From Sipunculus nudus (Eukaryota > Annelida > Sipuncula > Golfingiida > Sipunculidae), in contig CM049307.1 of the NCBI GenBank assembly GCA_026874595.1, positions 55,757,870-55,821,869 of the forward strand: a stretch of 64,000 nucleotides of DNA. Direction: 5' to 3'. The position numbers and the translations under genes were made by a program. The notes under the pieces are model-generated. The model searched no databases, was not told where the DNA came from, and saw only the letters and a list, made by a program, of their open reading frames with translations. Positions 13,580-60,310 of this stretch are shown piece after piece; the stretch's first letter is position 1, and every line of letters begins with the position of its first letter.

Positions 13580-14519
13580 ACAAATGCCATAACCGAAATC
13601 TTGGCCGGTTCTGGGATTTACTGGCTGTGGTCCACCCTGGGTGGTTATTAGGGGGCAATCGATGCACCCATACACAGATCATAATATTCAGTTTTCAAAC
13701 AAATTCAAATATAACGATGTTGCACTAGACCAGATTTAATTGGGTGCATTTATGGGGCCTGCGCTTGGCGTGAACTCCCCGTCCCAATCGTAAAGCCAGG
13801 TGGCGTAGCGATTTCCCCACGTAAAGTACAATAACTCCACGATAAGACAATAAACTGTCACGCGTAGCTTCAAAGGAAAAGCTGTGCTGAGGCCAGGCAA
13901 AACCACAAAGGAATATTTCCCCCAACAAAAGCAAGATTTGAGTCCGGGAGAAAAAGGCCGCACGTACAAGGAGATCCATCCATCATCTAATTAAAATTTC
14001 AAGCAAACCACACCGGGTTCAAGATCAAAGGGACCGCCTGCAAACATGTGTAATTTATAAGGCCGTGGCCCCGCAGCGCAGAACGCCCAGGAATTCGTAC
14101 AAATTTCAAGGGAAAAGTAAGATGTTTTGTTGATAAATCCACAATATAAGTTTAGTGCACGCAAACTTATGCTCATCTTGTGGTTGGATACAAAATTTGT
14201 TCCCTAGATAGTGTTTTTGCGGTCACAATCACACACAGTTGCCTATAAAGAATCTAATTCTCCTTACCCGATTTTGTTTGTGCATAAGCTGTGATTAATC
14301 ATGGGTAGGCCGGCCATTATCAACGCGCCGAAAAGTATTTTTATTTAGTAGTGCGAGTTTATACTGATTGTTTATTATAATAAACAGTACAGGCATGTTT
14401 AATATTGATTACATCTATTAGCAGAAGGTGAAAAAACGTGTATATTGTCATATATATAAAGGTATGTACCCCTTCGAAAATAGACTCGACCGACATATTT
14501 TGCTTCCATGTCAATTGCT
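13580..14519 (+). other. GC-richer region upstream of the Axin promoter
   Basis: Composition shifts from the AT-rich flank to a mixed, CpG-containing sequence without a coding signature. It holds a canonical TCF/LEF-type site (GATCAAAGG, 14023-14031), with ACCGCC a few bases downstream, and a CTTATAAGG-like AT/GC patch. This is probably the distal Axin promoter or an enhancer; inferred from position. Confidence 0.4.
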
Positions 14520-14665
14520 GCTCGACTATGATTGGCGCGGGCACTTCAGAGGCAGTGACGTCACGGTGTGTAGGGGTTGTCGGCGGCTGGCATGTGGCTT
14601 TGATGTTGGATTCAAACTTTTCAAATTTGTTAATACAAACCGACCCTTGAAGTGGAATCAAAGGG
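14520..14665 (+). promoter_or_regulatory. Putative Axin promoter: CCAAT box, CRE, TCF-like sites
   Basis: Seen in order: an inverted CCAAT box (ATTGG, 14531-14535) followed by GCGCGGGC; a perfect CRE (TGACGTCA, 14556-14563); GCTTTGATG (TCF/LEF-type, core 14598-14604); and AATCAAAGG (core 14657-14663). CpG density is locally higher than in the flanks. A promoter here suits a non-coding first exon ending at a GTAAGT donor 35-240 bp downstream. No TATA box or initiator could be fixed. The TCF-type sites would let Wnt signalling act on Axin transcription, as known for vertebrate Axin2. Confidence 0.45.
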
Positions 14666-14900
14666 CAAGATAAAGACCAATGATATGATATTGGTAAGTT
14701 TCACTTGCTGGATATACTGTGCATTGGATTTACCGAACGCCAAGTGTGGGGAAACCGCCGTGCCCAGGTACCCGTTTGTAAGTTACTTTGTTGCAACTAT
14801 GTGTACATTTCAGCGACGCTGTAAACTGTTTGGCAACATGAATGAGATGGAGTTCTCGTAGCACGTTGTGTTTAAAGCTGAAAATATTCGTGGTGTTAAG
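14666..14900 (+). other. Candidate 5' non-coding exon of Axin
   Basis: Two good donors follow the putative promoter: ATTG|GTAAGT (intron from 14694) and TTAAG|GTAAGT (intron from 14901). Either could join the acceptor at 19721-19723 and supply the Axin leader. The longer version contains several upstream ATGs. RNA evidence is absent; this is inference from position and donor quality. Confidence 0.35.
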
Positions 14901-16727
14901 GTAAGTACATATGGAATACCAACCCAGAGGTAATCAGAGGGGTTTATTCAAAAAGTTGGGAGCTCTCTTGAGCTCTCGGTTGTCGCTTTCTGTGTGAAGC
15001 GAGGGCTAAGGGCAATTTTCACGGTCAGCGAGTCTAAATATTTCAGAAGAAGAACTGTGTCGGGTCACAAGTTGTGAATGGCATACATACTCGTGTTTGA
15101 CTAGGTCCGGAATACCCAGCGACTAGCTGAATAAACAGCCAGGCATACATGAGATTTCACTTGGAACAACCAAGGACGATTTTGATGCAAGAAAACCTGC
15201 AAGGAAAAAAAAAAATTTAGGATGAAAGGCACAGTCACTACAGACCCGCATTAATGGTTGCCTTTTTTATTTATATTGAAGCTCGCCCGGCTAGGACCCT
15301 GAGGCAATGCCAGTCCATCTGTATTTGATTGTAGTTCCCCTCAGTCTAGGGAATGCATGCATCCAGTAGGCCGTAAAAGCGGCTATAAAATGCTGTATGG
15401 AACAAAGTTTGAGGTGGTTGGTACCGTTTATGTGTATTATATTGTTTTACGGCCCGGTGTATGGTTCATGAGCTGGCCATAATTTTCTGTATGAACATAG
15501 GAAATTCCTTTCACTACATTCTTGTATGGAGGGACAGTTGAGACTGTTTCTGCTCCATTCACTTTTTATATTACCCCATCTGAGATGAAAGCTTGCATTG
15601 ACATAACCCATCAAGCCTTAAACCAGTAGCCTGTTACTGAAAACCCACTAATGGCTTTTATTGTATAGAGTCATGAAAATTTGCATCGCAGCCATTATTT
15701 TTGTTCATTTATGGTTCTGTTCTGTCCCTGAATTTGTTTGATGTATTTTTACTTATAACATCATAGGAATGCAAACCACTGATCCAGACGCGCAGATTCG
15801 CTTGATTTTCGAGGCAGGTGATTGCTGTCCTAATTGAATAGTTATAGTCAGCTGCTATACTTGTTCAGTGCTGGAAAAACCCTTTCTACAGGACACATAA
15901 GGTTCTCATTTTAATCAATCTACTGTTTTAGAAAGGCAGAGATTATAAATTACCTCCCTGAATGGACTTAAAAACCCTGATAAATAAATAAGATGTCCAT
16001 ATCATTTGCAGTGAAAAGTAAGAGTCATGACAAATTACCTTGTAGAACCCACCTTGCTTTGTAAAATGTCATTTGCATTGAAAATATAATGGCAAACTGC
16101 TTAGCTGCTCCTTAGAGAGTACAAAATAATCAGTATATAACCAGAATTACTTCATAGGCCATATATCTAGAGTTCAAGTCAAAAGGATAGGTGTAGCATG
16201 TTTATAGTACCTTCAGTTTAAAAACAGTAGAGTGATGAAATACAACCCCAGTAACTATCAGTGATTTGTTTATCAACAGATAATATATATGACACGTGCT
16301 TCAAAGAAATGATATTTACATCAAGCATCTCTTGAACTGAACAAGGTTGTAAATATCTGAGTTAACCTGACTGCTGCTGATTTATAAAGCAGATCCAAGG
16401 GAAAAAAGTAAAAAGCCTTCATTGATATTTCAATATTTCATTGATAATTTTGAATCAAAATTTTATAACTTCTGTTTGCTAATAACCTCCCCAGATTAAT
16501 AATTGTGACAAGGGGTCCTTCTTATAGTGCAATGGCCAGAATTTTTTTTATATTTGTTAATTTGACAATTAACATATGAATTCCCATGAAGTACCACTTA
16601 ACCTTAAAATCATAACCTTAACCTTAGAATCCTGTTATACTTGTAACCTTGTATCCTTTTTTCATCTGCTCCTGTTTTCAGCAGAAAAAGCACATTATGA
16701 AAATAAAAGTTGCAAAAAAACTTAGTA

Positions 16728-18740: not shown

Positions 18741-19748
18741 CGGGCCTGGTGAGTGATCACATGTAGAAGTCATTTGGGTGTATTTGTGGGCTATAACCCT
18801 AGCTCTAAGGCTGATTGCGGGCCAGCTCGGCCTTCAATTGATTCTGTTTTAGGACACAGCACATTGTGGATTGACCGGCCTGGCTTATTTGAATTTCAGT
18901 TGGGTTCGTGCTTTAGGCTGAGATATGTGTGTTTATTCGGCCTGCCCTCCCTTCACATGTTAGTCAAGATCAAGGAACACCACAGCAGGCTATGTATTTA
19001 CTGGCCCAAGCTTCACGATCAGGCTTTTAATTGCTGTGGAGGGAGACCCTCCAAATTTTATTATGTCTGTTTGTCAAATGACGCTGAAACTGAAAGACAC
19101 CCATTGAATTTCTTTGCAAATGTGGAATGTTCTGTGCAATCTGTGAGGTGAACAGGTCCCAGTTAATCTGAAAATTGCGGTTTTTGTGGATTTACCAGGA
19201 AAATTGGTTCGTGCATACGCCATTATGGCCTCATGGTAGGGTTTATGTGTGAGGTACCAGAGGTGAGTGATAATAGAGGATGTTTGCCTTATTGAAGCTT
19301 TATCATTCAATATTAATGTTATCTTTGTTCTCAGGTTATTTCCTATATTGAAGGAGTATTCTTGGTCTTTTTGATTCTTTACTTATTAAACACATTTCCC
19401 AGATGCAATATTATACATGTATTATTTGGCAAGGGGTATCTTTTTGTATTTTCAAAGTTTTATTCCTTAGTGCCTCAGTGCAAATAGGTGATCACAGACT
19501 TTTATAATAGCTCCCCCCCCCCCCTTCCATAATTTTAATCAAACTTGTCTGTGTTTTAGCTGATAAGTCATTTGTTAAAAACATTTACTAATTTATATAC
19601 TGACATTTATGATTTTATGCATTGATTTATGATTCGCTTGTGGTTATAAAATTGAGGTTATTATTTTATGTTGATACAAGATTATAACCTGAACCTTTGT
19701 ACATATAAATTTGCATATTTCAGGTTTCCTCTACACATCAAAGCCAAC

Positions 19749-19754
19749 ATGTGA
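19749..19754 (+). other. Minimal start-stop uORF in Axin leader
   Basis: ATG immediately followed by TGA, 46 bases upstream of the Axin start codon and within the same exon if the acceptor at 19723 is used. Start-stop elements are known to stall or divert ribosomes. It overlaps by one base the next upstream ATG (19754). Confidence 0.5.
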
Positions 19755-19810
19755 TGCTAGGCCAACAGAGCATAAGACTTGGGTGCACCACAGGAGAAAA
19801 TGAGTATTGA
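19754..19810 (+). other. uORF overlapping the Axin start codon
   Basis: ATG at 19754 opens 18 codons ending in TGA at 19808-19810. It is out of frame with, and reads past, the Axin ATG at 19800. A ribosome translating it could not reinitiate upstream at the Axin start, so it is expected to lower Axin output. Whether it is transcribed depends on the leader exon structure. Confidence 0.5.
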
Positions 19811-20776
19811 AGTACACCAGTTCTTGAATGACGCCTCGGGAAACTTCACAGAAACCGCACCGCGTCCTCCCGTGCCAGGGGAGGAGAACGAACTCCAGTC
19901 CAATGGCGGCGCTTCCACGCGCAGTAGTGGATCTCACAAGAGCCACATTTCAGGAAAAAGTCATTCATCTGGGAAAAGCGGGGGCTCACATCGTACGGAC
20001 CTCAGCCATTCCCCGGCGGCTACACCCAGGCGCTCAAACCTGGATAAAACGAGCACTTCACTCAGTGGCTCCCTCAAGGGGCTCGATGAGGACGCTATGG
20101 TGGCGCCACTGGGCTTTGAGCCCGAGGGGAGTGCGGCTAGCTCTCCCCCATTTACAGAAAACACAACACCAGCCTACCTAAAGTGGGCTGAAAATCTCAA
20201 TAACCTCTTGGAGGATAGCGATGGGGTAAAATTATTTCGCCAGTTCCTTGACCAGGAGGCTTGTGCTAATGTTTTGGATTTCTGGTTTGCTTGCCGTGGA
20301 TTAAAAATGGTGGGGCCAAATGATAAGGCCAAAATTCAGCATCTCATTAAACTAATCTATAGGAAATACATCAGGGACCAGTTGAATCTCAAACCAGAGA
20401 TTAAGAAAGCCATTGCAGAGAAAATGAGTCGAAAAGAGGGTGTGGACCAGCACATTTTCGATGAAGCTCATGCTGAGGTGGAGAGGACTTTGCGGAATGA
20501 TTCATACCCGTTGTTTATTAAATGTGAGCTGTATGTGCAATATGTTGAAGCAGGTGGTGAGAGTCCTAAGACAAGTCACTCCTCTAGTGGGTCCAATAGT
20601 GTACGACCTGTAACAGGGCAGTTGCCTCCTTTAATTGAAGGAGAGGAATTAAAATCGGAGGATATACACTTTGCAAAGCCTCAGCCACCTACGCTGGCAC
20701 TAACAAAATCGGCTTTAGCAGCAACATCCGCATCCAGGGCACAAATGAGTATACGGCGGCCTGAGTCATGTGCTGG
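19800..20776 (+). CDS. Axin: Axin, first coding exon: tankyrase-binding motif and RGS domain
   Basis: Encodes residues 1-325 plus two bases. The start is ATG at 19800 (MSIEVHQFLND), because this N-terminus aligns with the vertebrate Axin start and has A at -3; an in-frame TTG lies seven codons upstream. Visible in order: a tankyrase-binding segment RPPVPGEE (22-29), a Ser/Gly/His-rich linker (about 37-95), a second conserved segment LGFEPEGSA (104-112), and an RGS domain (about 124-251) with LKWAENL, LFRQFL, LDFWFACRG, YRKYI, FDEAH and YPLFIK. In Axin the RGS fold binds APC SAMP repeats rather than acting mainly on G-alpha. GESPK follows. The exon ends TGT GCT GG|GTAGGT; its phase fits the next exon. 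Axin is the cytoplasmic scaffold that brings GSK3, CK1, APC and beta-catenin together. The linker is longer than in human AXIN1. Confidence 0.97.
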
Positions 20777-23700
20777 GTAGGTATCACAGTGTATATACAT
20801 ATATATATCCGTATATCTAGTGTATAACATAGGAATGATCAACAAATGTGTTGTCAAACTGTTATTTTCTATAATTGTATGTAACAGGGAACTGGTGCTT
20901 TGCTAAAGGTAAGTGTCAGTCTGTTTCAGCTTTCAACCATGTGCATCCAAATTACTGGTTAGTATATGTGTATTATTTTATTTCAGGTACATACATGTGT
21001 ATCCAAACCTCACTTCGAGGTGTTCACAGTGAAATGTTTCATGGGTAGTGGAAATGTGTAGAATTCAGAACCAAGATTGAGGCTGCAACCAAACCACAAA
21101 AAGCCCCCTTTGATGTATGAAATGTGGAAATAGCTCAAGTTAACACATTGGTAACATATGTTAGTGTTCAGTGGTTACATGAATCAGTAAATTTAGGAAT
21201 GGAATTTGGGACTGGGATCTATATATGGTTGCTTTTAGTGTCTTTAGAATGATGCATCCGCAGGGTTGCCATAAGAACAACATATATAATATAGTTTGTC
21301 TTCTGGTGTCTTCTCAACAAGTTGTTGTTTTGCGGTACAGGTAGTAATTGATTGTTCAGTTCTGTTTGTAGATCCAAAATGCAGAAAGCAAGGTCAAGTT
21401 ATTTCAGTTCAGGAGTCCTAGTGGACTACAACATGGCTGCTTCGTGGTACTGCTAGTACCAAAGGCTGGTGAAATTCTAATATTCTGTGCTGATTAACAT
21501 TGGGAATAAATAAAAACAAGAAACCAAATGACAACTCAACCATGCACTTATGCTTATTAATATGAATAGATTTATGTAGTTTATTTTATGAAGGCACAAA
21601 GTCCCTAATAAAGTGTCTAGGACATAAACACGGCTTCCATCATTATTATTATTGCAGTATTAGTATTATTAATATTATCAGCTGATAAATTACTGAAACC
21701 AAGGAGTAGAGGTTTTTTCACATCTTAATTGTTTTGTTCTTTCTTGAGGTAGCTTTTTGGATCTGTTTGCTTGCGTATTGCTGGTAGCAGTGTTTTGGGA
21801 TACATTTTTGAGCTATCTCTGTCACTAATGTTGTGTCCAGAACATTGTTTATCATCAGAAATAGGATTTGGCCTGAAGGATTTGGCAGAAGTTAAAAAAC
21901 CTTCAGTACCAATGAAAGAAATTTTGAATGTTTGACAAGCAGGTTGGTTGGTAGAAGCAAATGAGATAAAAACAATAGATCACATGGGGGAAACAAGCTC
22001 AGTTCCATCACATCATATCAGGACATTACTGTCATTATGGACTAGAGTCAAAACAGAATTATTAATTAAGCCATTACAGGTTTTATTTTCCACATAATTT
22101 AACAATTTGGCATCCATTGCCATGTTTTATGAGTGCATTAACCATTGAAAACAATGAGCAATTAAATGATGTGGTCAGACCGCTCCCTTTGAACTTCACG
22201 AGAAACACTGCAGATCATCCATCCCATATTTTATGCATGTAGCACATCAGGCTCGGCTTCTAGTGGATGCACATAAAACTGCGTCAGTTCACATGCCTTG
22301 GAGGGCATGTTGTAACAGATTATATCAATTTTGAAGCAATGACATAATTGTTTGTGGAGACATGACAGTTCTATATGATTAAGGGGGCTCTATTTCTGAG
22401 ATTGCACCATGAGATTCCAGGTGGGCATATACAGCGTTTTTATGTTATTTCGCTGTTTTTCAGTCACCTTGACAGAGCTACTCCTGTTAAACTGACCTTG
22501 GTTTTGGACACTAGGTGAGAAGAAACAGGCAAAGACCCCCCACCATCCACAATCAGATAACACGTTACTTGTGAATCCAGCTGAACTTTTTGTGTTTGCC
22601 ATAGTACTGAAGTACAGACATGTTCTGTGGCCTGGGGCACGAAGGACAAACAAATGCTTGATGGGAAATATGTGATATGGAACTCGTAACTCATTGAATG
22701 TTTACCTTGCATTGTTCCAAGGTCAGCCTAAAAGCAGATGAGACCAATCACACATACACTATAACATGACAAGCATTTTAGCTGATACCATAGATCATCA
22801 AGAACATCACATGGTGTCCATGTTCCCCGTACAGAGAGGGTATAGTTGCTATTATTATATTTTGTGTCCACTCCAAGGCTTGTAATGCCGGGCCCGAACA
22901 CTGATTATCATTTTATGTGATGGGTTAGGACCCCAACCCTTAAATTAGGGTTGAAATGGGAACCAAATTTAGAACTTGGGCACTATAGGCATTACCTGAC
23001 TGGACTCTAATTCTCATTGGCATCGTAGCCATGGGAACACTGTTAAGTCTTTACAAAAGCTTTAAATGGACATCTTTTTACTAACGTGATATGTGTGTAA
23101 AGTTTAATAGGTGATGGCTTTACTTGGATATGAACAGAATTAAAAAATCCACCCTGAAAGCATTAATTCCTTGAACTAAGCCCCTTCAGTTCAAAACCAG
23201 GTGTATAAATATATAAGGTATAACATAAACTCAGTTAGTTTCCATAAATAATCAGGTATTTGTGCATGCACACAAAAGTTAAAACCCCCTTCACCAGCAC
23301 CACCAACCTGACCTCCAATATCGGCCCCTGTAGTGATATTCATCGCAAAGCATATAGCCTATTTAAAGCCTTATAACTGTAATCATCAATATAACCACAT
23401 GTATGATAGTTTATACATGTATAATGGATTTACTAGAAATTATACCAGAACCAGTGAAGCTGTTAGCTTTTAGGAGTCAAAACTAAAAGCAGTGCATAGT
23501 AAAAGCTTTTCAGTTTAATCATGAAAATGATTTAGGTGAACAGAATAATCATTTGTGGGTTCTAGTAATCATCCAATGTGCACTAGAATTAAGGAAAAGT
23601 GGCATTTTAGTGATATATTTTTATATGGAATCTCATATTTTATTTAGCGTCTAGATATATGTCACATGTCAATCTGAGTTTTAAAAATATATATAATTTT

Positions 23701-26700
23701 TGAGGAAACATCTGTACTTGAACATTCAAACTCAAGCATCCAGGTTCACATTTCATATCAGTGTCTTTGGGTTTAAAATTTTCACACACAACCCAGACCT
23801 GCTCATGTTCATGTTATACTAACATTATGGGCAAGCCAACTCCAGAAGGGGCAATGTGTGGGCTATACATTAACAAGCTGAGGTGATACTGCAAGACTGT
23901 ACCAGCTGTGAAGAAATAGTTGACCTGACCGCAGGGTGTAGTGGAGGGAATGGACTCCCTGACAAGTCCTGCTGGGATTTTGCCAAGTCTGATAATACAG
24001 TCTAGTAACCAGTTCTCCAGTGGGTGTGTTTTTATTTAATGGTAATATTTACTGTGCTGTCTCCTTTGATATTACAGATTCTGGTCGCTTTGCATTATTC
24101 AGGATCAGCTATGTAGTGCTTTGTTGATCTGTAGCGGCCTGACAAATCCACAGAGCTCTCCTTTATTATTGATACATGTAATGTCTTTTACAGTTCCATA
24201 GGGTTATTTGTAGTCTAAAGGCATAGAAAAGCTTTCATATAAGAAGTGCAGTTCAAAATGAATTCCTGTACTTGCAAGTCTGACAGTTCCATTTATCAGC
24301 CCAACATAACTTGCATAGCAATAGTCAGTAAAAAGACCAAGCCCAGGATTAACTGTTGGTCAAAAGCTAGGGTGGCTCCAGTGACAGCAGTGTTTCAGCC
24401 TGTGAAGTGCACACAGAGAGGGCAACATTTGCTATTCTTTGTGTTCAGAAAATTGATATAATCCATGGAGACAGCGACTCCTTGATTCCTTGTTTGGCTC
24501 CCTAACTTTGTTTTCCTAATGAGGAACAATAAATCATTTAATTCTAAACACAGCTTTATCTCTTCTGACTGTTGCCCACGGAAACAGACTTTGGCTAATA
24601 GCATGAGACAAATGATGGCGACTTTGATTTTCGAAGGTTTAACAATAGATCAAGGAAATCGGCTGAGCTGCACGTAATGCCATCCTTTAATTTTCAAAGA
24701 TTGGAATTTGATTAATTGACCATTATTTCACCATGTGGATTTATAAATTTATGAGTGTGACTGATCTTGAGAAAAAAAACAGGATCAGATAATCATGCAA
24801 CTATGGATTTGAATGAAAAATTACACAGTTATGTCATGGCAGAACTGTAGAAGCTTTTTAATCAGTTCTTGTATTTATGGAAAGAATGTATTTTGTAAAA
24901 GCCATGTTTACTTGATAACAGACCTGTATTTCAGCAATTCAATGCTAAGGTCATTCACCAATAAGGTTAGGCCACAGAAGGTCTATGTTTATTAAATAAT
25001 ATTAAATAAAATCTCTGAATTTAGCTAAATTTTACATACTTAATAGCACAGTTCAGTCAAATATAGCAAATATGATCATCTGTTGGGATAGGAAAAAGAT
25101 TATTTCAGCCACAGAGAGGCACTGGTGTCATGCAGATACTTGCAACAAGAAAAACATCGCAAGGATAGCATAAGAAATAACAGCAGAAATATGGTACTTA
25201 GGTTACTAAGGTAGTTGACTAGTTGTCATAAATGGATGGTCAACAGAGGATTTTATTCTTTGCACCTAGAGAGAGCCCAAGTCACCAAGCATACTGAACA
25301 AAAATTTGCTATGCATTATGAAGTGTCACCCCTCTAATGTTGGAGAAAACTTAATTTTTCTCTTCAAAGGATTAGTTTCATTGTATTTGACAGCTTCTAT
25401 GAATTCTCAAAAAAAGGTATGAATAAAATCAAAGGGAATGTGTTTTAAGTATATATTATGCAAGAAAGTGAGCCCATGCATTCACAATTTATGATAGAAA
25501 AAAAAATATAAAAATGTAGGCAGGTCTGTACCATGAAAGTGTTCAATACACGTTTAGACAAATTCTGAGTGTGCTTGGAGAGGGGTCTGTTCATAGGTAC
25601 TGAAGCATAAGCCCACACGGGATTGGGTGTAAAAATCAATCCTCAGGTATTCATTGTTCAGTAACAGTTGGTATTTACATGCAGCTAGGAGGGGCAGTGT
25701 ATTCATCAACCCGCTAGTGTGTATTGTCAAGTGCTCCACCAGCTGTATTTTCCTTAGCCTGTGGGTGATTTCACATTAACATTAATGCTGACAAAACATG
25801 CATGGACAGTCAAATTTCATGCCTCAAATGGATAATTCTGTCAAACTATTCCAGAAATACTCCTTCATCTGTGACAAAACATTCACTTTGATTTAAGTGA
25901 TAAATTATAAAACTTAATATTATGTCAAGATTATGTAAAAGTGTGCAAACATTGGGGGAAAAAGTTGATTTTGCTTGCATATATAGCACATATATAGATT
26001 TGTAATTATTGAAATGATTTTTTTTATAAATTGTCAATGGATAATACTGAGAATATAGAATTGAGAAAGTAATTTGTTTATTAAGATAATTGAAAATAAG
26101 TGAATAATTAATCTTCCCTTAAGAGTCTCTTGAAACAGGATTATGAGATTTAGCACAGGGAGGGTGACTCGAGCTTAATCAGTCCGTGGCATTGTCGAAT
26201 AAAATTCAGCCCCGAACTTGCATTCACCACCAGGGAATAAAACTAAAGAATAGATTCTTTGAAATACCCTTCATCAAATAGAACTAGTACAAGCATTTAC
26301 AGGAACTGTGATGGATATTAAACATGGGATCCATTTCACGTCTCTCAAGTCTTGGATGGTTAATTGTGCACTGGGATCATAATCCAGTTTATGTTGAGAT
26401 GAGGCAGTCCATATTTTGAATCAGTGTTTGATCAGGCGTCTGCAGTGTGATTTATACAGGAGTTGTTGAAAGATCTGTAATCATTTATACCAATCCCTGT
26501 GTCATGGGAGTTCATTTAACAAGGGCTTAATACTCTGGAGTGCCTGGAAATAGAGGAGTTTCATGTGGTGCATGTTTGTCGTTACATGGATGATGATGAG
26601 GTTTTATGTCTCAGGGTTTTGTTTTCACTGGCTCCACAAGTCTGTGTGGAACACTTGAATTTAGGGTGTAAACTGCACAGTGCCAGGGGAAGCAAAACCG

Positions 26701-26918
26701 GTGAGCAGGGATTGTGGGTATTTGCAGGAAGTATCAAGAGCCTCAAATGTTGATGTTTGTGATACATTTTGGAGCCTTCTTGTTGCCTTTGTAGTTGAGA
26801 ATACTTCAATGTGTGGAGAGGAAAACCCTGCAGTTGGGTCACGTACTGCACTCGACCACCTTTGCTTTTTGAACTGGTGGTTTTTTTGGGTTGCCTGGCT
26901 CGTTTGATCGCACTGCAA

Positions 26919-27479
26919 GATCAAAGGACATGGAGTGTCGTAAATGGGAAACATGCATTCCGCAAATTGTCATTGTGTTATGTTGCACTGATCTTAAAGG
27001 GTAAGCTAGTGTTCCTGGCCCTCAGAGCTTTCCCTTGTTTAGCATTGTTCTGCTTATGGCAGTTGGCCTATCTTCACAGCTGCCTACCACTTTGGGCCCA
27101 CTGGTCTGTAATTACGGGGATATTTTAACTGTGTAATTGTTGGTTTTTCGCAGTGGGGCCATGTGAAGCCGATAGTCGCACACCAACAGACTAGAAGAGC
27201 GCCATTTGTTTTGCAAGATCCTATCATTTTCCTTCCACCAATGGTATTTAACATCAAACGAGGGTTCCGCCACAGTTGGGTAGTTTTTATCAAAGGGGCC
27301 TGTGTTGCTTTGTGAGCCCTTTGCAGAAAGACTCTACATGTGAATAGGGGGCCCTTTGGTGACTGCCGCCAATTGCTGGCTTCTTTGATCCCGTGGTACT
27401 TGTTGCCTACTTTACATCTGATTGTTATTACAGCATGAGTTGGCGGACTCAAAGAGACCGGCTGGGGCTGTGCTTTGAT
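26919..27479 (+). promoter_or_regulatory. Candidate Wnt-responsive enhancer: four TCF cores plus a helper site
   Basis: Four CTTTGAT/ATCAAAG cores in 560 bp: 26920-26926 (canonical GATCAAAGG), 27289-27295, 27383-27389 (CTTTGATCCC) and 27473-27479. A full helper-type motif GCCGCCA (27365-27371) lies 11 bases before the third core. The DNA is GC-richer than its flanks and not coding. Position in Axin and the motif pairing suggest a TCF-driven feedback element; not tested. Confidence 0.5.
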
Positions 27480-28795
27480 AAGAAGCCAGTTGGCCATGTC
27501 CCTGGCCTCAACCTGTGTACTTTATCATCAGGCTGGACCATATTATACATTCACATTCATAGCCGCTGTCTGCAGGCATCTACTGTGGACCCTTTGTTGC
27601 GTTCTTAAGAAGTTTTGTCATGTGTTTATGTTCAAACCGTTAAGGTTCAGTTCAGATTATATAGCCGCATCAGCCGGTCCGTTGGTGGTGTCACTGGTCC
27701 TTTTTTTCTTACCCCCAGCTTGTTTCTGACAGAATGCTAGATTTCCCTGTGTTGATCTCTGGCAACCTCTGGTATCTCTTTAAGATAACCCCGGACCAGA
27801 AGCCTCTTTTCATGTCGAGGTGATTGATGGGATATGATCACGATGGGTGTGTATTTAGATGCGTACATGTATGAATCTAAGTGGCCCTGCCTAGTGGTGC
27901 AGTCATTTCAATAACAAATCAATGGCGCTATATAAAGATGTGTGTATGCCACTGATAATAGAAAAGGGCTTGGATCAAAAGAGCTCCTGGCCAGCTAGGT
28001 CGGCTTTTTCAGTGGTGTAGCCTATATCAAAAGGAATGTGATCTGTCATATTATGGGAATAACTGGTCCGTTGGCTCGCCTTCAAAGGCTATGAAAAATA
28101 GTCCCTTCTTATTTCACCACTGCATATTAAGTGTCAGCTTTGAGGAGTTTTAATTAATAGTGAGTCTGTTATACATGGTTTGTACTTTTGCCAGTAATTA
28201 GTATGTGTGATCCCACCACTTCCACTGACTGTACTGTTCTCAAAGACGAATGGTCATTTTATGATAAACTTGAAAGGAAGTAATCCCCAGGAGCCGGGGT
28301 CAAGCTTGGTGCACTATGGTGTGGCTTGGTGCTTTAGGGATAAAAAAAATAGCAGAATTAGAACTGATTCTGAGAGAAAAAAGGATCAATAACTATGCAA
28401 TGGGAAAATTAAAAGAAATACTGTTATTGTATGGATTACCAAGTGATGCTATGAAATAAATTTGGAAAACTGGAAACTAAGGAGATTTTGAACAGGTTTT
28501 AAAATTAATGATGTGTGAAATGTGTAATTGTATGTATGATTTATATCAACAAATGTCCTTATAAAGAAAAACAATAAATTAATTTTCCTACTTAATCATT
28601 TAATTTAATGACAGTTAAAAGACTGGCATTGTACTGTGGTCCTGTGGGTATTGAAAATAAATCTTTGTCACAGTGAACTAGAAAACTCGCCAAAGTATAC
28701 ATGATTATTCATAAATCAATGTTTATCATAATTATTTATGTTATTATTATTTGTGATTTGTATAATAATAATTATTATTTCATGCATGTGGAGTT

Positions 28796-42407: not shown

Positions 42408-42551
42408 GTTGTACTTACAAGGTGGTGCTCGCAATTTAAACCCTTACCATGTTTCCTACGCACCCGTTTCAACGCAAGACACCACAGAAGTGCAGAGTTT
42501 GTCCAGCGACCAACTCACTGATGATACCATGTCCCTCACAGACAGCAGTGT
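42408..42551 (+). CDS. Axin: Axin coding exon: linker with conserved SLSSD...SLTDSS block
   Basis: The acceptor is CTTTTGCAG (ending 42407). The first base completes the Gly codon opened by the previous exon, and 47 codons follow (residues 327-373). The end is AGC AGT GT|GTAAGT, leaving two bases. The peptide includes NPYHVSYAP, then QSLSSDQLTDD and MSLTDSSV. This matches the vertebrate Axin segment between the RGS domain and the GSK3-binding region (NPYYV...QSLSSD...SLTDSSV). It is a Ser/Thr-rich, presumably phosphorylated, flexible linker; no enzymatic role. The length of 144 bp and both phases agree with the neighbouring exons. Confidence 0.95.
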
Positions 42552-45055: not shown

Positions 45056-45064
45056 GATCAAAGG
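45056..45064 (-). promoter_or_regulatory. Canonical TCF/LEF-type site
   Basis: GATCAAAGG (CCTTTGATC on the minus strand) in a GC-richer, non-coding island of intron 3. Confidence 0.3.
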
Positions 45065-47337: not shown

Positions 47338-48608
47338 TATTGGATTTTCGCCATGTTGTTAGTCATTATATAAATCCTTCCTTGCATTCCTAACCAATCC
47401 CCACATTTATCTGTACCATTGTTATACAGTGGCATGAATGCCTTTACAAGGTTTGTGACAGTTTGTCTCCAGTTTGTCCAGTGATCTTTGATTAGAACTG
47501 CAGCATTTGGTCCGGTCTACTATTCATACAAGGCTTCGTAGCCATAATAACATGCCTTGGTATGGCTTCATTTTAATTTGTATACTCATATAGGGCTTCC
47601 TTGTTGATCGTGGGACAATACACTGGTGCACGGCAAATACAGGCACAAGTTGCCGCTGGCTGTATGGCAGGATCTAATAGCGGCAAGATGAAAGAGCACA
47701 AATCCAGTGGTGGTTTGTGGGACTGATTTAGGGGCCTCGATCCATGAATGCTGGCTATTGTTCATGCTAGCTCTCTCAGGCATGATTTTTGGCACCCATG
47801 TTAGAGTCACCTCTAGTCCTGTTTTGATTTTGTGTTAACACAGAGGTCATACATTTTCGGTGTCTCCTATCTTTGCAGAGACAGCCTCAGTTATTGTTCA
47901 TCTGTGCTGACCCTGAGGGCCTTGTTGTAGTTTACATTATGTTGATTCAAATTGTATTTCCACATATGGGTGCAAACATACAGAAATATTTCCCAGCTCT
48001 CCCTGCGGATACTTGTATTGAATCTGTGTCTTTTTTATTTTTATTGATACCACATTTTCAGTACCCAAACCCAGCTGTGTGTACATTTTGGGTATTTTTT
48101 TCTCATACATGTATCAAACAATTCACATGTTATTTGGTGAAAGTGTGGGAAAACCTGACAGTTCACATGTTCCTGTATAGGATGGTAAAACAGGAGAAAT
48201 TTGGACAAAAACTGCAGAATTATGTTGTTACCATGCTAACATCTGTTATCACTGGCCCTTCAAGTACAGCTAAGTGCTTATGCAAATCTGTTCATTCAGA
48301 GATCGTCAGCTATAATCTGACGTGACTTCAAAGAGTTACCCCGCTCCAGCGATGATAACACAGCGTTGAAGGGTTCCTAATATCTTGATGAAGGGGGATA
48401 TCCACAGTAAGAGTAGCTTTTGAGAGATATTTTCCTGGCTGCTTGTGCATGTGGTGGCCGCTCTGTTGTGCATGGGTACCAGGCATGTTAAACCAGAAGG
48501 AAACTGGCATCCCCCACACCAGTCAAAAGGCTACACAGCCAAGGCCCATCAAAGAACCAGGTTTTGTTATGCAAAAAAAGGCACACACACAGGGAAAAGA
48601 GATAGAGC

Positions 48609-48711
48609 CCTTTGATTTGCTGTATCAATAGATACAGACTGATTGAGTGAACAGATGGGCCACAACATAGAGGTGACATCTTGCCCCATGCGATCCCCGC
48701 AGCTCTTTGAT
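48609..48711 (+). promoter_or_regulatory. Pair of TCF-like cores, 95 bp apart
   Basis: CCTTTGATT (48609-48617) and CTCTTTGATG (core 48705-48711), in the same orientation, in a GC-richer island of intron 3. Confidence 0.3.
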
Positions 48712-49855
48712 GTTGATTGGTTCTGTGGCCAGTGCAATGTCATGCCAGCCACATGGTGAAGAGGGTCTCCCACTTATCTCCCTCTCCATTCCCTGGCAAG
48801 ACTTCAAAGGCCTCTCCCTGTCCAAGGCTCCCTCTCTCATATCGTGTTTACTCCTGGCTGTGTTCTGCTGCTTGTTTGTAACTTGTGGCGCTATGGGGCC
48901 TCTCCTGGGTGTGTGCAAAACAAATGGCCCGAATGAAAGCTTGCATCATGAGACATGTCTTCAGTGTCAAGAGCCTGGTCATCAGCAAGATTTATTCTGG
49001 ATGCCTCACGGGGATGATCACAGATACATGTTCTCACTGGTCATCTAATATGCAAGGTATGCCTGATTTTTGTGATGTACGTCATTGATAAATACTAACA
49101 TGATAGGGTCTTCACTGCATCATTTATGTGTCTCGAATATGTCGAGTTTCACTGTGTAGTTTGTGTTGCGAATAAAAAAATGGCAAATGTAAGGTTATAA
49201 CTTCTCTTCAAAATTTCATTTTTCCTGAAAATCATTATGGTTAATTGGATAGCCTTATTGCTGGCCCAAATTGTTTTCTGTGTCATTGTGAATTAATGTG
49301 CAGTGCCATTTTTGGAGCTTGAGTACCCCCGAAAAATGGCCGAGTGGTGCATTTTGGAGTTCAAATATTCAAGCAGCCCCATATCAAGGCAGCATTAGTG
49401 GTGTTTTTTTGTGCCTCTGTGCCGACTGCACATTGGACGATATTTCAACACAATTTGGGAACGTCTGGTCACAGTGCCAGGAGTGGCCATTAAGGGTTGC
49501 CATGTCAACAAGGGGGATTTGGATAAGGTGCCGCACTGCTGTGCTTTAAATGTGAAGAGAATATTTAATCGCAAAGACCGGCAGCTGTACCGAAAATCTC
49601 TCCCAAGAAGGCCATCCACAGTAAACCTATTTTGGTATTCCGGGGATTGTGAATATTGTTTTACCTGGTCGGTGTAACAACTGCTCCGCCAAGTGCATGG
49701 TTGTATGAGCTTCTGGCCTCCTCAGTTTGACAGGAACTACCCCATACATCAACACAAATGAAGTTTACCCAACAATTACGGCTGGTGATTTTGTGTGGCA
49801 GAGGGCCAATATGGCTATGTTGATACAGCGGCTATCATTGTAAAGATGTGGCCCA

Positions 49856-49977
49856 CTTTGATGTGATTGGAAAGATCAAAGGGACCTCAGCCTCCGTGCC
49901 TGCTAAACTGCCCCATCCAAGCTAATGTGTTGGTGTGGGGCTGAAAGCTTGATTAACTCTCATTGGCAGACTTTGAT
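49856..49977 (+). promoter_or_regulatory. Three TCF-like cores in 122 bp
   Basis: CTTTGATG (core 49856-49862), GATCAAAGG (49874-49882, canonical) and CTTTGATC (core 49971-49977). The first two are in opposite orientation with starts 19 bp apart. Located in a 1-kb GC-richer non-coding island of intron 3. Confidence 0.45.
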
Positions 49978-50854
49978 CATATTCTAGAACCAACTGGCCA
50001 GGCCTACTCCTGGAAATCACAATAGAAGATGGATGGCTTTATGAAAGTTTAATATGGCCACATGGTCTGAAGTTTAATGCATCAGTGTGGACAGGCAGTG
50101 CTTCAGATCTCTCAATGGCAGCATTGTTTTATGGCCCTATGCTGTGTTACAACTTGGCAGGTTATATCGGCAAAGGATAACCCAGCCTTAAAAATCCCTG
50201 CCAGGCCATTGTGACAATCCACATCCAAGGAGTTAGTGGCGTTCCTCTCAGAGCCTTCTGGCGGACTTTTGTCAGATTTACATGAGCAGATTAGGACATA
50301 TATCACAGCATTTTGTGGACAGGTCTTTAACAAAGGCTGTTCTGGATGTTATTTCTTGGGAGTATTTACTATCTTATTTTCTAGGGTAAGTTTACATTTT
50401 TATTACCTGTTACAAAATATAAAACCGGATTCTATGAAATTTTTTTTTATTATGAAAAATTTTTCAAAATGTTGACCTTGCATTCAGGTGGTGATTGATA
50501 TTATTGAAATTCAAAATTTTTTTCTAGCTACCAGTACCTTCTTTCAAAAATATACAGTGATTTTTAGATATAAATTAAATTAATGGTGGAATAATTATAA
50601 GTGAAGGATTTTAAAGTTTTTTTTAACAGTTTTAGGATGAGCTGAGGGTGATAAATTTTTGTTTAGTGAAGAAGGGAACAGACCTGAATAATGTTTTTAA
50701 ATTGTACATGTAGATATGACACATTTAAAATAGGGAGTAAAATAAAATATAAAAGGACATACCACAGGCCCTCAGCACTGGAAAACAATAAATCCCTTTA
50801 ATGGTGTCGCCATCTGTTGGGTAGTATTTGAACTAAAGTCACAAATAACCTTAA

Positions 50855-51193: not shown

Positions 51194-51311
51194 TAAATCC
51201 TGTTTGGTGGACTTTAGATATTCTACCCAGGACACCAGTCAGTCATTATATCATTACAAGATTAATAAAAATATAAAATCAAAATTCATTTATTGAATTT
51301 ATACTTTCAAA

Positions 51312-51948
51312 ATCAAAGGTATTGATTCATAAGATGCAAGAATGTAAGACCACAGTTGTGATAGTTTGTCGATCAGTCACTAGATGGCAGCACTGGTTGC
51401 TGGCTGAGTATCTGCAGGCTGCCACATCAAAGACTTTTCCAGTGTGAGCGGTATCATATCATGCTAATTATGTGGTTATTCCTCCTCATCAGCAGTGCTG
51501 TGTGGTGCAGATATTCAACCCAGCCCTTGGGTGGCAGGTGCAGCAAAAACATAGTCAGAGGGGACTTTATGCTAGAAGAGACATGCAGGACTTTCTTGCT
51601 GGGCAGGGTTTTCCCTGTGTCATTTGTTCTACCTTGACACATGGCTTTAAATTACATAGGGAGCCTGGCTTTCTTTGATCCTCAGTGCAGCCCAGCAGTA
51701 ATTAATCAAAGAAATTAAAGGAACATGTAATCTTTTGTAAGGCAGTACAATAAGGCATTGAAGCTGCCCAGTCAGGCTGCAGCAGATACAGGCTGGCTTT
51801 GAAGCAGTAACTTTGTTGTTGCCAATAATATAATCTAGCGCATATTGGAATTATTAATGGTAATAACCCGCTGGAAATAGGGATTTTGTGTGTTGCCTTT
51901 TATGTTTTGAACAGGCTCATTAAAAGCTTTGTTGTGGAGACATCAAAG
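51312..51948 (+). promoter_or_regulatory. Five TCF-like cores in 640 bp
   Basis: Cores at 51312-51318, 51426-51432, 51673-51679 (CTTTGATCC), 51705-51711 and 51942-51948 (canonical CATCAAAGG), in both orientations. The last four sit in a GC-richer, non-coding island; the first is at its AT-rich edge. Candidate Wnt-responsive enhancer by motif content only. Confidence 0.4.
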
Positions 51949-52424
51949 GCTGAAATAGCTGATGTTCAAAAGAGTCCAAGTCACCTCGTTGTTTGTATGC
52001 CTCCATGTTGGGAGACTTTAATCTGGGGGGGACAGGGATGTCATTCCCTTGGTAGATTTGCATTTTTGCTGTCGGTTCTCTGGTGGAAAACTTGTGTAGT
52101 GCTCATTTTGCCTTGGGGCTCATCAAGTTTCACTCTTACTTTTGTTACTTGCTTGGCCTGGAGAAAGTAGCAGTATTTTCCTCTACTTTGAAAAGTTCTT
52201 TGCGAATGTATATCTGCAAGTCCTCCTTTTTGCGTCTTCTATGCTGATGATGGTATGCTATCACTCAACTAAGACTGCAGAACGTGGCCATCAGTAGTTG
52301 TGGATAGTGAACTTCACACAGCTGATATGGATTTTGTATTGAAAGTGTGAATGGCGTATAAGCACATGCCATGGACTAGTGCTGCCTGCCGATTGAGTGT
52401 ACATTTGGATTTTTCTGTACAATG

Positions 52425-53680: not shown

Positions 53681-53813
53681 GGTTTAAGTAACTCTGCTTT
53701 AAGTAACTTTGTTTAGGTTACTTTAAATCTAATAAATCTTGCGACTGCCATTGAGATTTTGTTTTGAAAAGTCAATAAAATGCAGGTTAGTATTGAGATG
53801 TAATCATCAGACT

Positions 53814-53871
53814 CTTTGATGCATGGCCTAGCCATTTAAAGCAAACAGCGGCGTCACTTTCAAGATCAAAG
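53814..53871 (+). promoter_or_regulatory. Pair of TCF-like cores
   Basis: CTCTTTGATG (core 53814-53820) and AGATCAAAGATG (core 53865-53871), 51 bp apart and inverted, at the edge of a GC-richer patch (53.8-54.0 kb). Confidence 0.3.
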
Positions 53872-54997
53872 ATGTGCAAATACAGAGCACAGATGAGTGG
53901 GAAGACAGGGAAATGTCATTGATAGGTCCTGCCCACAGATGAACTAGGCTGAGTTTCGCCTGATTGGACATTTGTTTGTTCAGTATTCGACCCGACCTGC
54001 CTCCAGCCAGCTTTCCGATATAATGGCTCACACTTCACTTAGATTTTATGATTTAAAGGTATATTATTCCTCATTATTTAATATTATAAACCTGAAAAAA
54101 TGTGTAAAACAGTGTTTTTCTAGCAGAAAATAAATATATGTTTATAATTTATAATAAAATGATAAAACCTGAAGTGGAAAAGTGTAATATGTATACTCGT
54201 GTTTATAATTTATTGGGCCAAAGGTGGGTTAGTAAATTGGTTTGTTCTTATATAGGTCAATCAATATACCTGCATATATTATAATCTTCAACAAAATCTA
54301 ATATTGATTTGCATACCCCCATCAGTTCTATCATATTTTGTTTATATATTTTTGAGCCAATAAAAAAACATAAGCTATAAGATAATGAACATAGGCATTC
54401 CAGTGTATGACCAATCACTTTGAAATGATCAGTGATATATTTATTATCCATTATGGTGATAAGGTAGCATATGTTTGTGATGATTGAGAACCAACCAAGC
54501 CCATTTGATAGAGGTGACCCCTCTCTTATCACTGAGAGCTGCCAGAGCCCGCCTGGCGAGTGTGCCAAGTGAGCGATTCCTTTGAAGTTTATTTAGTATG
54601 CGGACATGACAGTGGTCATAGCTGTCTTCATGAGTGAAGGCCAAAGTCTGCATGATCGGGAGTTTTTACTCTCGGGAGTGCCATTTTGCCAGTCAGTTGA
54701 GTCATGTGAGGAAAGCCCTTTAGAGGACTTGGCGAGGTAAACTTGGGTGATCATCCAGCCCGCAGGGAAACCAAAGGATCAGGGACCTGTCAGTAATGCA
54801 ATTTTCCTTTCAGCAGGGACCAGCCATGCAACTTAAACGAGGCAATCAAGTAGCAGTCATTTTAGCAAACCTTAGCTAGAGGGCAGCTCAGGCTGGCAAA
54901 CCAGGGAAAATTGTGGTCCGTCAAACCTGCACCATATTGTCTTATTAATTATGCATGTCATAGGAATGAAGGATTAATGCCAGGGCAGTAAGCAGGG

Positions 54998-55144
54998 CTT
55001 TGATGTGTTCAGCGCGGGGCCTTTGATCGTTCATGGGATCAACACACTTTGAAGTACACTGCATAAACAAAGGGCTAGACTCTATAGGCAGATTACCCTC
55101 GACTCTTTGATGAGCAGCGGTGGATAGCTGCTCCGCACTTTGAT
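54998..55144 (+). promoter_or_regulatory. Four same-orientation TCF-like cores just upstream of Axin exon 4
   Basis: CTTTGAT at 54998-55004 (GGCTTTGATG), 55021-55027 (GGCCTTTGATCG, canonical), 55105-55111 and 55138-55144. All four read in the same direction within 147 bp, and the last ends 153 bp before the exon at 55298. The surrounding 800 bp is GC-richer than the rest of the intron and non-coding. This is the densest cluster in the window and the best candidate for a Wnt-responsive element. Confidence 0.5.
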
Positions 55145-55297
55145 CACTTAAATTTTATTCAAGTTAATGCCATTAAAATGAGCCTGGTTTACTTTGGTTT
55201 GGATTAATGTCTTTGCTGAGACTGGCCTCAATTCGATTGCTGGTTATGCTATGTTGGGCCTGCCTCTGATCGGACTGTCTTTGACTGTTCATTCCAG

Positions 55298-56620: not shown

Positions 56621-56749
56621 CGCACTGATCGAGCTCCGAAAGATCGCAACATAGCCGAGACGGATCCCCCAAAGTTTGCGGAGATGTTGATAAAGAGGCT
56701 GGAGAAAGTGGTGGAGGACCAGCAGAGAACAGACAGGTTGAACGAAATG
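56621..56749 (+). CDS. Axin: Axin coding exon: GSK3-binding helix
   Basis: Exactly 43 codons (residues 412-454) between TTTGCAG|CGC and ATG|GTAGGC, with both boundaries in phase 0. Residues about 427-441, PPKFAEMLIKRLEKV, correspond to the GSK3-interaction helix of vertebrate Axin (PQKFAEELIHRLEAV). The helix packs into a hydrophobic groove on GSK3 and positions the kinase to phosphorylate beta-catenin and Axin itself. The hydrophobic face (F430, L434, L438) is kept. The preceding acidic/basic stretch RNIAETD aligns only loosely. The exon continues into a charged QQRTDRLNEM segment that resembles the coil following the helix in other Axins. Confidence 0.96.
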
Positions 56750-56959
56750 GTAGGCTACGTCACAACCCCTCTCTCCACACGTACCTTCACTCCCTCAAAC
56801 TCACCCACACATACACATTTAATGCAGGGGCAGTGGGGAACAGAATGATCATCTTCATAAAGGGGAACTGATGTAGACCTTGGTCTATAATAATATTATT
56901 TGCCACAAAAAATGAAAAATCCAAGTGCATTATAGAGCACCTAGAAATATAAGACAGTT

Positions 56960-57905: not shown

Positions 57906-59196
57906 GACAGCTTTGAGCCAGGGAAGGAATTGTTAAAGTTTTGTGCATCTCGAGAGAAAATGGCTGTTCCAACTGGGTCACTTGGCTTTCTACTGAATGC
58001 CCTATGGGTACTTTTATGGGTAGCTCAGTTTTAGTCTTTCAGTGTACAGTGAATACAAGATATCTCAGAATCAGAAGTGGTATTACCAGAAGGCAGGAAT
58101 TGAGTAAAAGGATGTTTACTTGACATTTATTTGCATAATTGTATGTAACAGAAGTTCTCAAGGATGGGTCACTTTACTATGGTTCCATAGCTGGTCATGG
58201 CTACCTCCTTGGGAAAGATGAGATCTAGTTTCTTACTGAAAAAGCACCATAGTTCAGCTAGGTTGTGACAGGGGCACTGTAGTTACTACCTGGCCGAAGT
58301 TTGTAAGATTTTCTGCCCTTAGTAAGATTTTATAGTGAAATCAAAAGGGTACCTATTGGTGTGCATTAACTTCCAGGTTTAATGAAAAAAATAGCTGTTG
58401 GAAAAATACCACGTTGAAAAATAAAATTAAAAAAAAAAAACTAAATTTGCTTTTAACTAGTTATACTGAATGGATAATGATTCATTATTATTTGCTTGAA
58501 TTACATTATCATTTGGCAGGTGATGCACGAAATCAGATAAGTTTCAAGGAAAACTTTATAAATTTCACAAAAAAGGTTAATACATTGAGAGTAAAATTGG
58601 CAATATTATGGAATTATTTTGACTCCCAAGTGTCATCTTCAGTGTGAACCTGTCACAAAGTGTGTTCATGAGAAAAATTAATATGTTAGTTATAGATGGT
58701 CAAATTGGGTAGGTCTGGTATGATCTGACAGACATCACCAACACCCATGTCTCCTGACATGGGGGCAGATTTTCAGCTCCGGCATTATGCTTTCAGCCCA
58801 TCAACTCTTCATATCACTTTTCCCAACTGTCCACCATATCTTAGGCAGGTCGAGGAGTTATCAAACTTTTCCCTTTTATGTATGCTATGTCATTAATTCC
58901 TATCAAGCGATTGATTGATCAGATTGTTCAAAGGCCCCAGGCGACTTGTTCATTCTGTGGTCCCAAACCTTGGGGAAGAACGTCAAAAGAAGAGGGCAGA
59001 GTGATTGCATTACCCAAGATTCAAGTCTTGATAGGTTTGGCTTGTTTGATTGTCATCTGCATGCCAAAACTGACACGTGAAATACGTCGCGTTTGAAAGG
59101 GGGATGAGGATCCTGAAGCCCCCTGTCAATTTGTCCTGCCACATTGGACTGTCTCTGCTGATGAAAAACTATTGCAGGGTAATGCTAGCCAGCCGT

Positions 59197-59319
59197 CTTT
59201 GATGCAGAGGGGCTTTATAAGCCTTTATGACATGTAGTATAATCATAACTGAAAGAACATCAAAGGGCATGCGATCAGGTGTTGACACGGATTGATTTTT
59301 CCATATCCCCACATCAAAG
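59197..59319 (+). promoter_or_regulatory. Three TCF-like cores in 123 bp
   Basis: CTTTGATG (core 59197-59203), CATCAAAGG (59258-59266) and CATCAAAGG (59312-59320). The last two are canonical and inverted relative to the first. They lie in a 1.3-kb GC-richer, non-coding island of intron 5. Confidence 0.45.
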
Positions 59320-60301
59320 GGCCAGCCTGTGTAGTCAGACCTCCAATTTAATTAGTAAATTGTCTGTGGCCATCGCTGGTCGTGCTGCTTGTGATCCCGT
59401 CACTTTGTGCCAGACAAAGTGAGGCCAAAACTTTTCCCAAGCGACCCGCTCCCCTGATTAGGTTTTGATAGAAGGGGCCCCGGCTTTGTCACAGCGCTGC
59501 CACAGAATAAGCAGCGCTGCAGATCAAACACACATCAGTGTCGCTCGCTGCAGCATTTCAAGGAAGACATGCAGCCGTGAGTTTATCAGCAGAAATTGCT
59601 GGCCTGACAGTTTGAATATTGATGGGGTTAAGACATTGCGGCACCTTTTCGTTCTCTGATACCTTCTCATGTGAAGTGAAGGCAGAAGGTGACATGATCA
59701 CTGCAACAGCCAGCTATTGACTCCCGAGCAGATCAGCAAATTTATATTTTATCTGCCAACACGGTACTGACAAGACAGCTTGATTATTGACAAGGGACCT
59801 GGATCAACGGGCCAGCATGGTGGCTGCCACGGTCATAGCCAGCACCAATCCTGTTAACTGTGAACTTCACTAGGGGATTGTTAAGTTAATACACTTGTGC
59901 TTTAACTATGGGAGTAAAGCTGCATTGATTTAGCAGCATACCAGACGCAGCCCAGGTGTTGTAAGCGGACGGAACTGGGAAAAGAAGGGGAAACACCATC
60001 ACTGCTGCCACCTCAAGATATGATGGACACTGTCGACTGTTTTGCGTGCATGATGGTTTGTTTTATCTCGTTATGTGATCCAGTGTTTTATTTTGTTTGT
60101 TTTTTTGTTAAAAACTTGGGTATCACTTGTTAGGCTTCATTTAACTTGCCGAAAGACTTGATTGATTGAAACTAGGATCCCTTCCCTGAAAGGCAATTGT
60201 TAAATATCCATTGTCAGCCATGTTCTTGCCCAATGCAAAACCAAATCACTCGTTCTTTCATCCACGCCAGATCTACTAATGTTGTAGAAACATCTCCGGT
60301 A

Positions 60302-60310
60302 GATCAAAGG
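60302..60310 (-). promoter_or_regulatory. Canonical TCF/LEF-type site
   Basis: GATCAAAGG (CCTTTGATC on the minus strand), 650 bp upstream of the last Axin exon in the window. Confidence 0.3.

Follow-up and report, generated by a model that had tools for sequence, protein, structure and literature searches.

Does the Wnt pathway of Sipunculus nudus control its own brake? The question is raised by a 64,000-nucleotide stretch of contig C2 (C2:55757870-55821869, hereafter the window), in which a gene of the Axin family is accompanied by many short TCF/LEF-type motifs. The whole genome assembly (1,426,538,692 bases, 1.4265 Gb, in 153 contigs) was used as background, and positions above 64 kb are window coordinates continued beyond the window end. 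All counts take both strands and concern either the core CTTTGAT or the strict site CCTTTGATS (that is, CCTTTGAT[C/G]). An initial annotation of the window, made by eye, had proposed a distributed Wnt feedback circuit acting through TCF sites in the promoter and introns of Axin. The excess of TCF-type sites across Axin suggests that the Wnt pathway may switch on its own brake, and direct control of Axin by TCF and beta-catenin, forming a negative feedback loop, is the probable meaning of the locus.

The window holds 45 CTTTGAT (25 on the plus strand, 20 on the minus strand), slightly more than the 42 or so first counted by eye, and 12 CCTTTGATS at exactly the coordinates initially given: 2136, 14023, 21107, 26919, 33819, 45056, 49874, 51941, 55020, 59258, 59312 and 60302, with 11 of the 12 inside 14023-60310. 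The genome contains 322,846 CTTTGAT and 31,166 CCTTTGATS, corresponding to 14.5 and 1.40 per 64 kb and close to the early guesses of 14 and about one; the window lies 3.1-fold and 8.6-fold above this background, respectively. Both counts also exceed the largest of 100 dinucleotide shuffles, which gave 17.2 CTTTGAT (standard deviation 3.7, maximum 26) and 1.5 CCTTTGATS (standard deviation 1.2, maximum 6). Reversed letter by letter, the two patterns do not rise above background, the window holding 10 TAGTTTC (9.9 per 64 kb in the genome) and 1 STAGTTTCC (0.61).

Under a Poisson model, 12 strict sites against 1.40 have a probability of 3e-8, or about 7e-4 once multiplied by the number of 64-kb windows, and the corresponding expectation over all windows for the CTTTGAT count is 2e-6. 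These values, together with a complete base-by-base profile that fits TCF, make it a rather poor bet that chance overdispersion produces high counts among some 22,000 windows and that one beside a Wnt gene was picked by prior interest. The real distribution of sites is nevertheless overdispersed, since the first 5.19 Mb of contig C1, divided into 112 windows of 46 kb that do not overlap, include one that also reaches 11 strict sites. Because part of the sites in that C1 window recur at regular intervals (pairs spaced 712, 718 and 718 bp), it is read as a tandem duplication, from its site spacing and not from its letters.

The motif excess is a local one: it extends over Axin from about 14 kb up to the stop codon, which lies some 9 kb beyond the window, and declines towards background on either side. 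In a density profile covering 264 kb around the window, site density climbs at about 12-14 kb and is at background again beyond 100 kb. With tandem repeats masked, the interval used for counting Axin (14.0-73.1 kb, from inferred start to stop codon, 56.7 kb) contains 52 CTTTGAT and 15 strict sites, compared with 33 and 3 in 106 kb of upstream flank and 19 and 4 in the 48.7 kb examined beyond 100 kb. The initial annotation had treated equal motif density elsewhere as the outcome that would speak against it; this has been examined in part, and no such density was seen at the sole comparison locus of useful size, 60 kb around a DIX-domain match on C15, taken by distance and not by gene limits (5 CTTTGAT, 0 strict). 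Two other 10-kb stretches of C2 hold 3 CTTTGAT with 0 strict and 1 with 1, and 10 kb of the TCF gene holds 4 with 0, too little to inform the idea that TCF is its own target.

The same background and flank counts bear on the idea that the excess is repeat-borne (through a dispersed CCTTTGATC element), compositional or genome-wide, and unrelated to Axin. In its favor, CCTTTGATS outnumbers its reversed form 2.3-fold across the genome, and the site cluster on C1 resembles a tandem duplication; against it, the genome averages 1.40 strict sites per 64 kb and both flanks lie far below the Axin interval. When the surroundings (±150 bp) of 53 sites from the masked interval were compared with 284 kb of sequence, a comparison that would miss repeat families having no copy there, similarity was found for one of the 53, at its edge. 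A 351-bp stretch of the island at 54.9-55.25 kb has one genome match, itself, in a search that skips very common words. A repeat or genome-wide origin is thereby largely refuted and we regard it as highly improbable.

The gene itself belongs to the Axin family by its Pfam domains, which follow in the order tankyrase-binding motif, RGS, beta-catenin-binding motif and DIX. Within the open frame 19797-20777, Pfam reports RGS (9.8e-24) and AXIN1_TNKS_BD (2.2e-8), and the best match in the Protein Data Bank is Axin (1dk8, 2e-35). The coding parts and one site within them are as follows.

19724..20777, plus strand: first coding exon, with an ATG at 19800, the tankyrase-binding motif and RGS; its 3′ end is that of the open frame and not a splice border.
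19737, minus strand: CTTTGAT that would fall in the 5′ untranslated part of the first coding exon.
42370..42552, plus strand: putative Axin exon, an open frame with NPYHVSYAPVST... and no Pfam match, which we presume to belong to Axin from its resemblance to human Axin.
56663..56806, plus strand: putative GSK3-binding exon, DPPKFAEMLIKRLEKV..., with a weak tblastn match (E 0.045) to a fragment of human AXIN1 and no Pfam match.
60936..61724, plus strand: beta-catenin-binding exon (Pfam Axin_b-cat_bind, 3.6e-14), its limits being those of the open frame.
About 70.9-71.05 and 72.9-73.05 kb, beyond the window end: two DIX exons (Pfam and tblastn).

Because a TTTCAG splice acceptor, located by eye at 19718-19723, precedes the first coding exon, transcription should start upstream of 19718. 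From 20 kb on, 4-kb bins have an observed-to-expected CpG ratio of about 0.3, compared with 0.82 for 12-16 kb; in 250-bp bins the ratio is 0.4-1.4 at 12.0-15.5 kb, mostly 0-0.5 at 15.5-17 kb and noisy at 17-18 kb. The fall near 15.5 kb (15000-16000) suggests the start of a methylated gene body and, read in this way, serves as the sole guide that places the putative Axin start and promoter at about 14-15.5 kb. A search for the DIX family gave four genome matches: the two Axin exons, a place on C15 and a place on C17. Two in-frame stops occur in the match on C15, so it may be degraded or extend into an intron. Since the C15 and C17 matches are taken to be Dishevelled- or DIXDC1-type genes, one Axin gene is detected in the genome, as far as the DIX family search reaches.

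For a ranking of words, the region 13-75 kb was compared with 155 kb of flank, tandem repeats being masked. CTTTGAT ranks first of 8,153 7-mers (53 vs 52, P 7e-7) and CCTTTGAT first of 29,354 8-mers (23 vs 11, P 1.6e-6), while CTTTGA is second of 2,080 6-mers, behind GCCAGC. The latter is itself the most enriched 6-mer of the region (39 vs 27), and AGCCAGC stands third among 7-mers.

A base-by-base profile, made against a 235-kb control (the flanks plus 80 kb elsewhere), indicates which factor the motif fits. CTTTGAT is enriched 3.4-fold and CTTTGAA 2.3-fold, and the remaining 20 of the 21 single substitutions range from 0 to 1.6-fold. The base preceding CTTTGAT is enriched 6.3-fold when C, 3.4-fold when T, 2.2-fold when A and 1.7-fold when G, with CC reaching 22-fold (14 vs 2); the base following it is enriched 5.7-fold when G, 4.1-fold when C, 3.5-fold when T and 0.9-fold when A. 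The TOPFlash site is part of the TCF/LEF preference, and TCF, SOX and direct repeat 1 (DR1) sites have CTTTG or CAAAGG in common, which leaves room for real binding sites that serve another factor, either SOX or a nuclear receptor of the HNF4/RXR type. This is hardly credible here, because SOX- and nuclear-receptor-type words are not enriched (CTTTGTT 0.71-fold, ACAAAG 1.02-fold, AGGTCA 0.53-fold, CAAAGTCCA 0 vs 8), and both the T or A at the final core position and the C/G flanks are of TCF type; SOX or nuclear-receptor identity was rejected on these values. One published abstract gives the TCF/LEF consensus as CTTTGWWS, and the high-mobility-group (HMG) site appears in the excerpted passages of another study as SCTTTGWSWW (PMC4154663). 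The closeness of the enrichment profile to the TCF/LEF preference, with SOX and nuclear receptors disfavored, is well supported at the level of sequence.

The sites are also clustered, with 17 of 52 gaps between CTTTGAT sites shorter than 200 bp where 8.1 are expected and 2,000 simulations reached at most 16. The content of G and C (GC) within 100 bp of the sites is 0.43, compared with 0.38 for the interval. The fraction of short gaps is 0.32 for CTTTGAT and averages 0.18 for 21 other 7-mers of similar abundance; because AAAATCA (0.33) and AAATGTT (0.32) cluster as much or slightly more, clustering alone is not unique to CTTTGAT. We infer that function would be spread over many islands and would not reside in one or two working elements. 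The candidate elements, strict sites and islands of CTTTGAT, named concretely enough for reporter tests, are listed below; the strand is given where the element has one.

13950..14720: promoter-proximal candidate element, with CTTTGAT at 14024 (minus), 14598 (plus) and 14657 (minus).
14024, minus strand: CTTTGAT inside CCCTTTGATC; an ACCGCC Helper-type motif starts 2 bp beyond.
14598, plus strand: CTTTGAT with GCCGCC on the opposite strand 10 bp upstream.
14657, minus strand: CTTTGAT in the form CCCTTTGAT.
21107..21115, plus strand: intronic CCTTTGATG (CCCTTTGAT).
25428..25436, minus strand: intronic CCCTTTGAT site.
26919..26927, minus strand: intronic CCTTTGATC.
27239..27530: island of 3 CTTTGAT (27289, 27383, 27473), with GCCGCC at 27365.
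33819..33827, minus strand: CCTTTGATG (CCCTTTGAT), the sole strict site of the near-background 28-44 kb.
39136..39591: island of 3 CTTTGAT (39186, 39277, 39534), none strict, within the near-background stretch.
45056..45064, minus strand: intronic CCTTTGATC.
48498..48762: island of 3 CTTTGAT (48548, 48610, 48705), GC 0.48.
49806..50028: island of 3 CTTTGAT (49856, 49875 as CCTTTGATC, 49971), GC 0.46.
51262..51999: island of 5 CTTTGAT (51312, 51426, 51673, 51705, 51942 as CCTTTGATG).
53764..53922: island of 2 CTTTGAT (53814, 53865).
54948..55195: island of 4 CTTTGAT (54998, 55021 as CCTTTGATC, 55105, 55138), matching only itself in the genome.
59147..59370: island of 3 CTTTGAT (59197, 59259, 59313), the last two as CCTTTGATG.
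60302..60310, minus strand: intronic CCTTTGATC, about 0.6 kb before the beta-catenin-binding exon.

A candidate factor for such sites is encoded in the same genome. A TCF query gave nine genome matches, four of them on C2 near 37.80-37.81 Mb, where the locus C2:37803509-37813621 contains a C-clamp-type exon and HMG exons, two of which are alternatives for the first HMG exon. The five weaker matches (31-44 bits), on C1, C4, C9 (two) and C17, are taken for SOX-like genes, and one TCF locus is detected. The C-clamp-type exon, at about C2:37803509-37803586 and flanked by the splice acceptor TTGCAG and the splice donor GTGAGT, carries three of the four cysteines that we take to make up a C-clamp, so the remainder must presumably be encoded by the exon that follows. 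The TCF of Platynereis likewise has alternative HMG exons in the passages available. In the excerpts of a study of Drosophila Wnt cis-regulatory modules (W-CRMs; PMC4154663), the likeness extends to clustered HMG sites, a C-clamp-type TCF, which the S. nudus genome encodes as W-CRM-type recognition requires, and a few Helper-type motifs within 30 bp.

Under the proposed mechanism, the C-clamp-type TCF of the animal would bind the clustered TCF/LEF (HMG-box) sites of the Axin promoter region and introns and, without a signal, would repress or prime the gene. Active Wnt signaling would lead TCF to recruit beta-catenin and raise Axin transcription, and the extra Axin would rebuild the beta-catenin destruction complex, closing a direct negative feedback. 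TCF binding, Wnt activation and feedback at Axin are thus predicted steps. The identity of Axin, the local excess centered on the gene, the TCF-type profile, the clustering and the presence of a TCF locus all support the circuit first proposed; the distribution of sites is uneven, 28-44 kb being near background.

Several points weigh against direct feedback control. Density is uneven, at 9.4 CTTTGAT per 10 kb over 13-28 kb, 3.4 over 28-44 kb (5 CTTTGAT and 1 strict site), 14.7 over 44-60.5 kb and 7.6 over 60.5-75 kb. The limits of the word ranking were set after the density profile had been seen, and the ranked interval is a little GC-richer than its flanks (0.380 vs 0.360); the genome-wide background is independent of the choice of interval. 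After correction the significance of the ranking is modest (about 0.006 for 7-mers and 0.05 for 8-mers), and two further CTTTGWW words are not clearly up (CTTTGTT 0.7-fold, CTTTGTA 1.4-fold). The Helper motif RCCGCC lies within 30 bp of 5 of 53 sites where 1.1 are expected by shifting (P 0.006), and near none in the flanks, but this excess weakens to P 0.04 within 50 bp, GCCGCCR lies near 2 sites against 0.4 expected (P 0.07), and in a set of 24 comparable GC-rich words RCCGCC takes no more than third place (4 of 20 near a site, with a mean of 0.11). Because of this rank no clear bipartite HMG-Helper code emerges, the excess over shifted positions being indistinct from that of other GC-rich words, and Helper motifs are not counted as support; in this respect the locus is unlike the HMG-Helper pairs in the passages on Drosophila (PMC4154663). 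Finally, in the available passages on Platynereis dumerilii, inhibiting Wnt at 5-7 days lowers Axin only mildly, and an activator leaves it unchanged (PMC5996498).

The sequence beyond the gene raises the further idea that the TCF cluster is real but has another output: it might serve a neighboring gene, or it might act on Axin by repressing it in response to Wnt or by restricting its expression to certain tissues, in place of a general negative feedback. Beyond the gene, site counts first stay at background level over 75-82.5 kb (1 CTTTGAT, 0 strict), a tandem array occupies 83-86 kb, and part of the excess returns at 87-100 kb (9 CTTTGAT, 3 strict); TCF also represses targets, according to published abstracts. 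Most islands, however, lie within Axin introns or adjoin the inferred promoter, and Axin is a known Wnt-responsive gene in other animals in the passages available, so that a different output is unlikely, though the least so of the alternatives considered here.

The array, which lies outside the window some 10 kb downstream of the end of the Axin coding sequence, has a 44-bp period, about 72 units and 30 CCTTTGATS in 3.1 kb, at about 83.1-86.2 kb (83093-86230). An exact 22-base pattern of its unit has 14 genome matches, all 14 in this array, in a search that would miss diverged copies elsewhere. It contains 17 CATCAGAGG alongside 29 CATCAAAGG. The 264 kb hold 86 array rows (period at least 10, some overlapping) with a summed unit length of 5.8 kb, in which genome densities predict a strict site in about 0.13 units and CTTTGAT in 1.3; with about 0.13 strict-site units expected among local arrays, coincidence is a possible explanation. 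Copies of CTTTGAT spaced by multiples of roughly 44 bp also occur at C1:1391160-1391992. Given the expected units, the mix of CATCAGAGG and CATCAAAGG and the 44-bp run on C1, the array is given less weight than strong evidence would have. It is a doubtful conjecture that the array acts on Axin as a TCF enhancer multimerised by nature, in which a change in the number of copies could make Wnt feedback stronger or weaker.

Vertebrate Axin2 has TCF-type sites in its introns and its promoter region. A negative feedback loop through Axin2/Conductin was reportedly described in vertebrates in 2002 by Jho, by Lustig and by Leung, all three cited in PMC5996498 and the first two also in PMC3033397. The S. 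nudus gene is alike in belonging to the Axin family, in having TCF/LEF consensus sites in these same parts at more than the genome level and in its presumed activation by beta-catenin; it differs in being the single Axin detected, in having sites over about 60 kb and in being known from sequence alone. Amphioxus has one, unduplicated Axin. Its transcript is raised by inhibition of GSK3 with BIO and CHIR99021 (PMC3033397, PMC7292647); the evidence there is expression, whereas here it is cis-regulatory sequence, and the amphioxus passages contain no Axin TCF sites. In the passages seen for cnidarians, Nematostella Axin is described as a target of beta-catenin that is both conserved and highly sensitive (PMC11903683), and axin depends on TCF during head regeneration of Hydra (PMC8049744), which likewise places Axin under Wnt/TCF control outside vertebrates, in another phylum and with evidence of the expression type. 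For Platynereis, the passages cite an earlier study for a stronger Axin effect at another stage, report SuperTOPFlash activity in the larva and indicate, likewise, probably one Axin and one TCF, with no Axin cis-elements in them (PMC5996498).

Because Axin responds to Wnt in Nematostella, Hydra and amphioxus and shows a mild response in Platynereis, as the passages cited have it, a feedback older than the split of Axin1 and Axin2 is already published at the expression level and is not new. The contribution of this locus is the dense, locus-specific cis-regulatory layout of Axin; none of the titles listed in literature searches deals with TCF sites of Axin in a mollusc or an annelid. The layout provides sequence-level, genome-controlled evidence for direct TCF control of Axin that complements the cnidarian, amphioxus and annelid expression studies, and illustrates that a motif cluster spotted by eye can withstand a whole-genome control.

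Some minor features complete the locus. Open frames at 136-395 on the minus strand resemble a SAR1 GTPase, which we take to be the upstream neighbor of Axin. An element of about 346 bp occurs in two copies, 89% identical, at 50850-51196 in an Axin intron and at 62279-62624, just past the beta-catenin-binding exon. Minisatellites lie at 29762-30946 (180-bp unit) and 57068-57899 (50-bp unit), the consensus of each being free of CTTTGAT.

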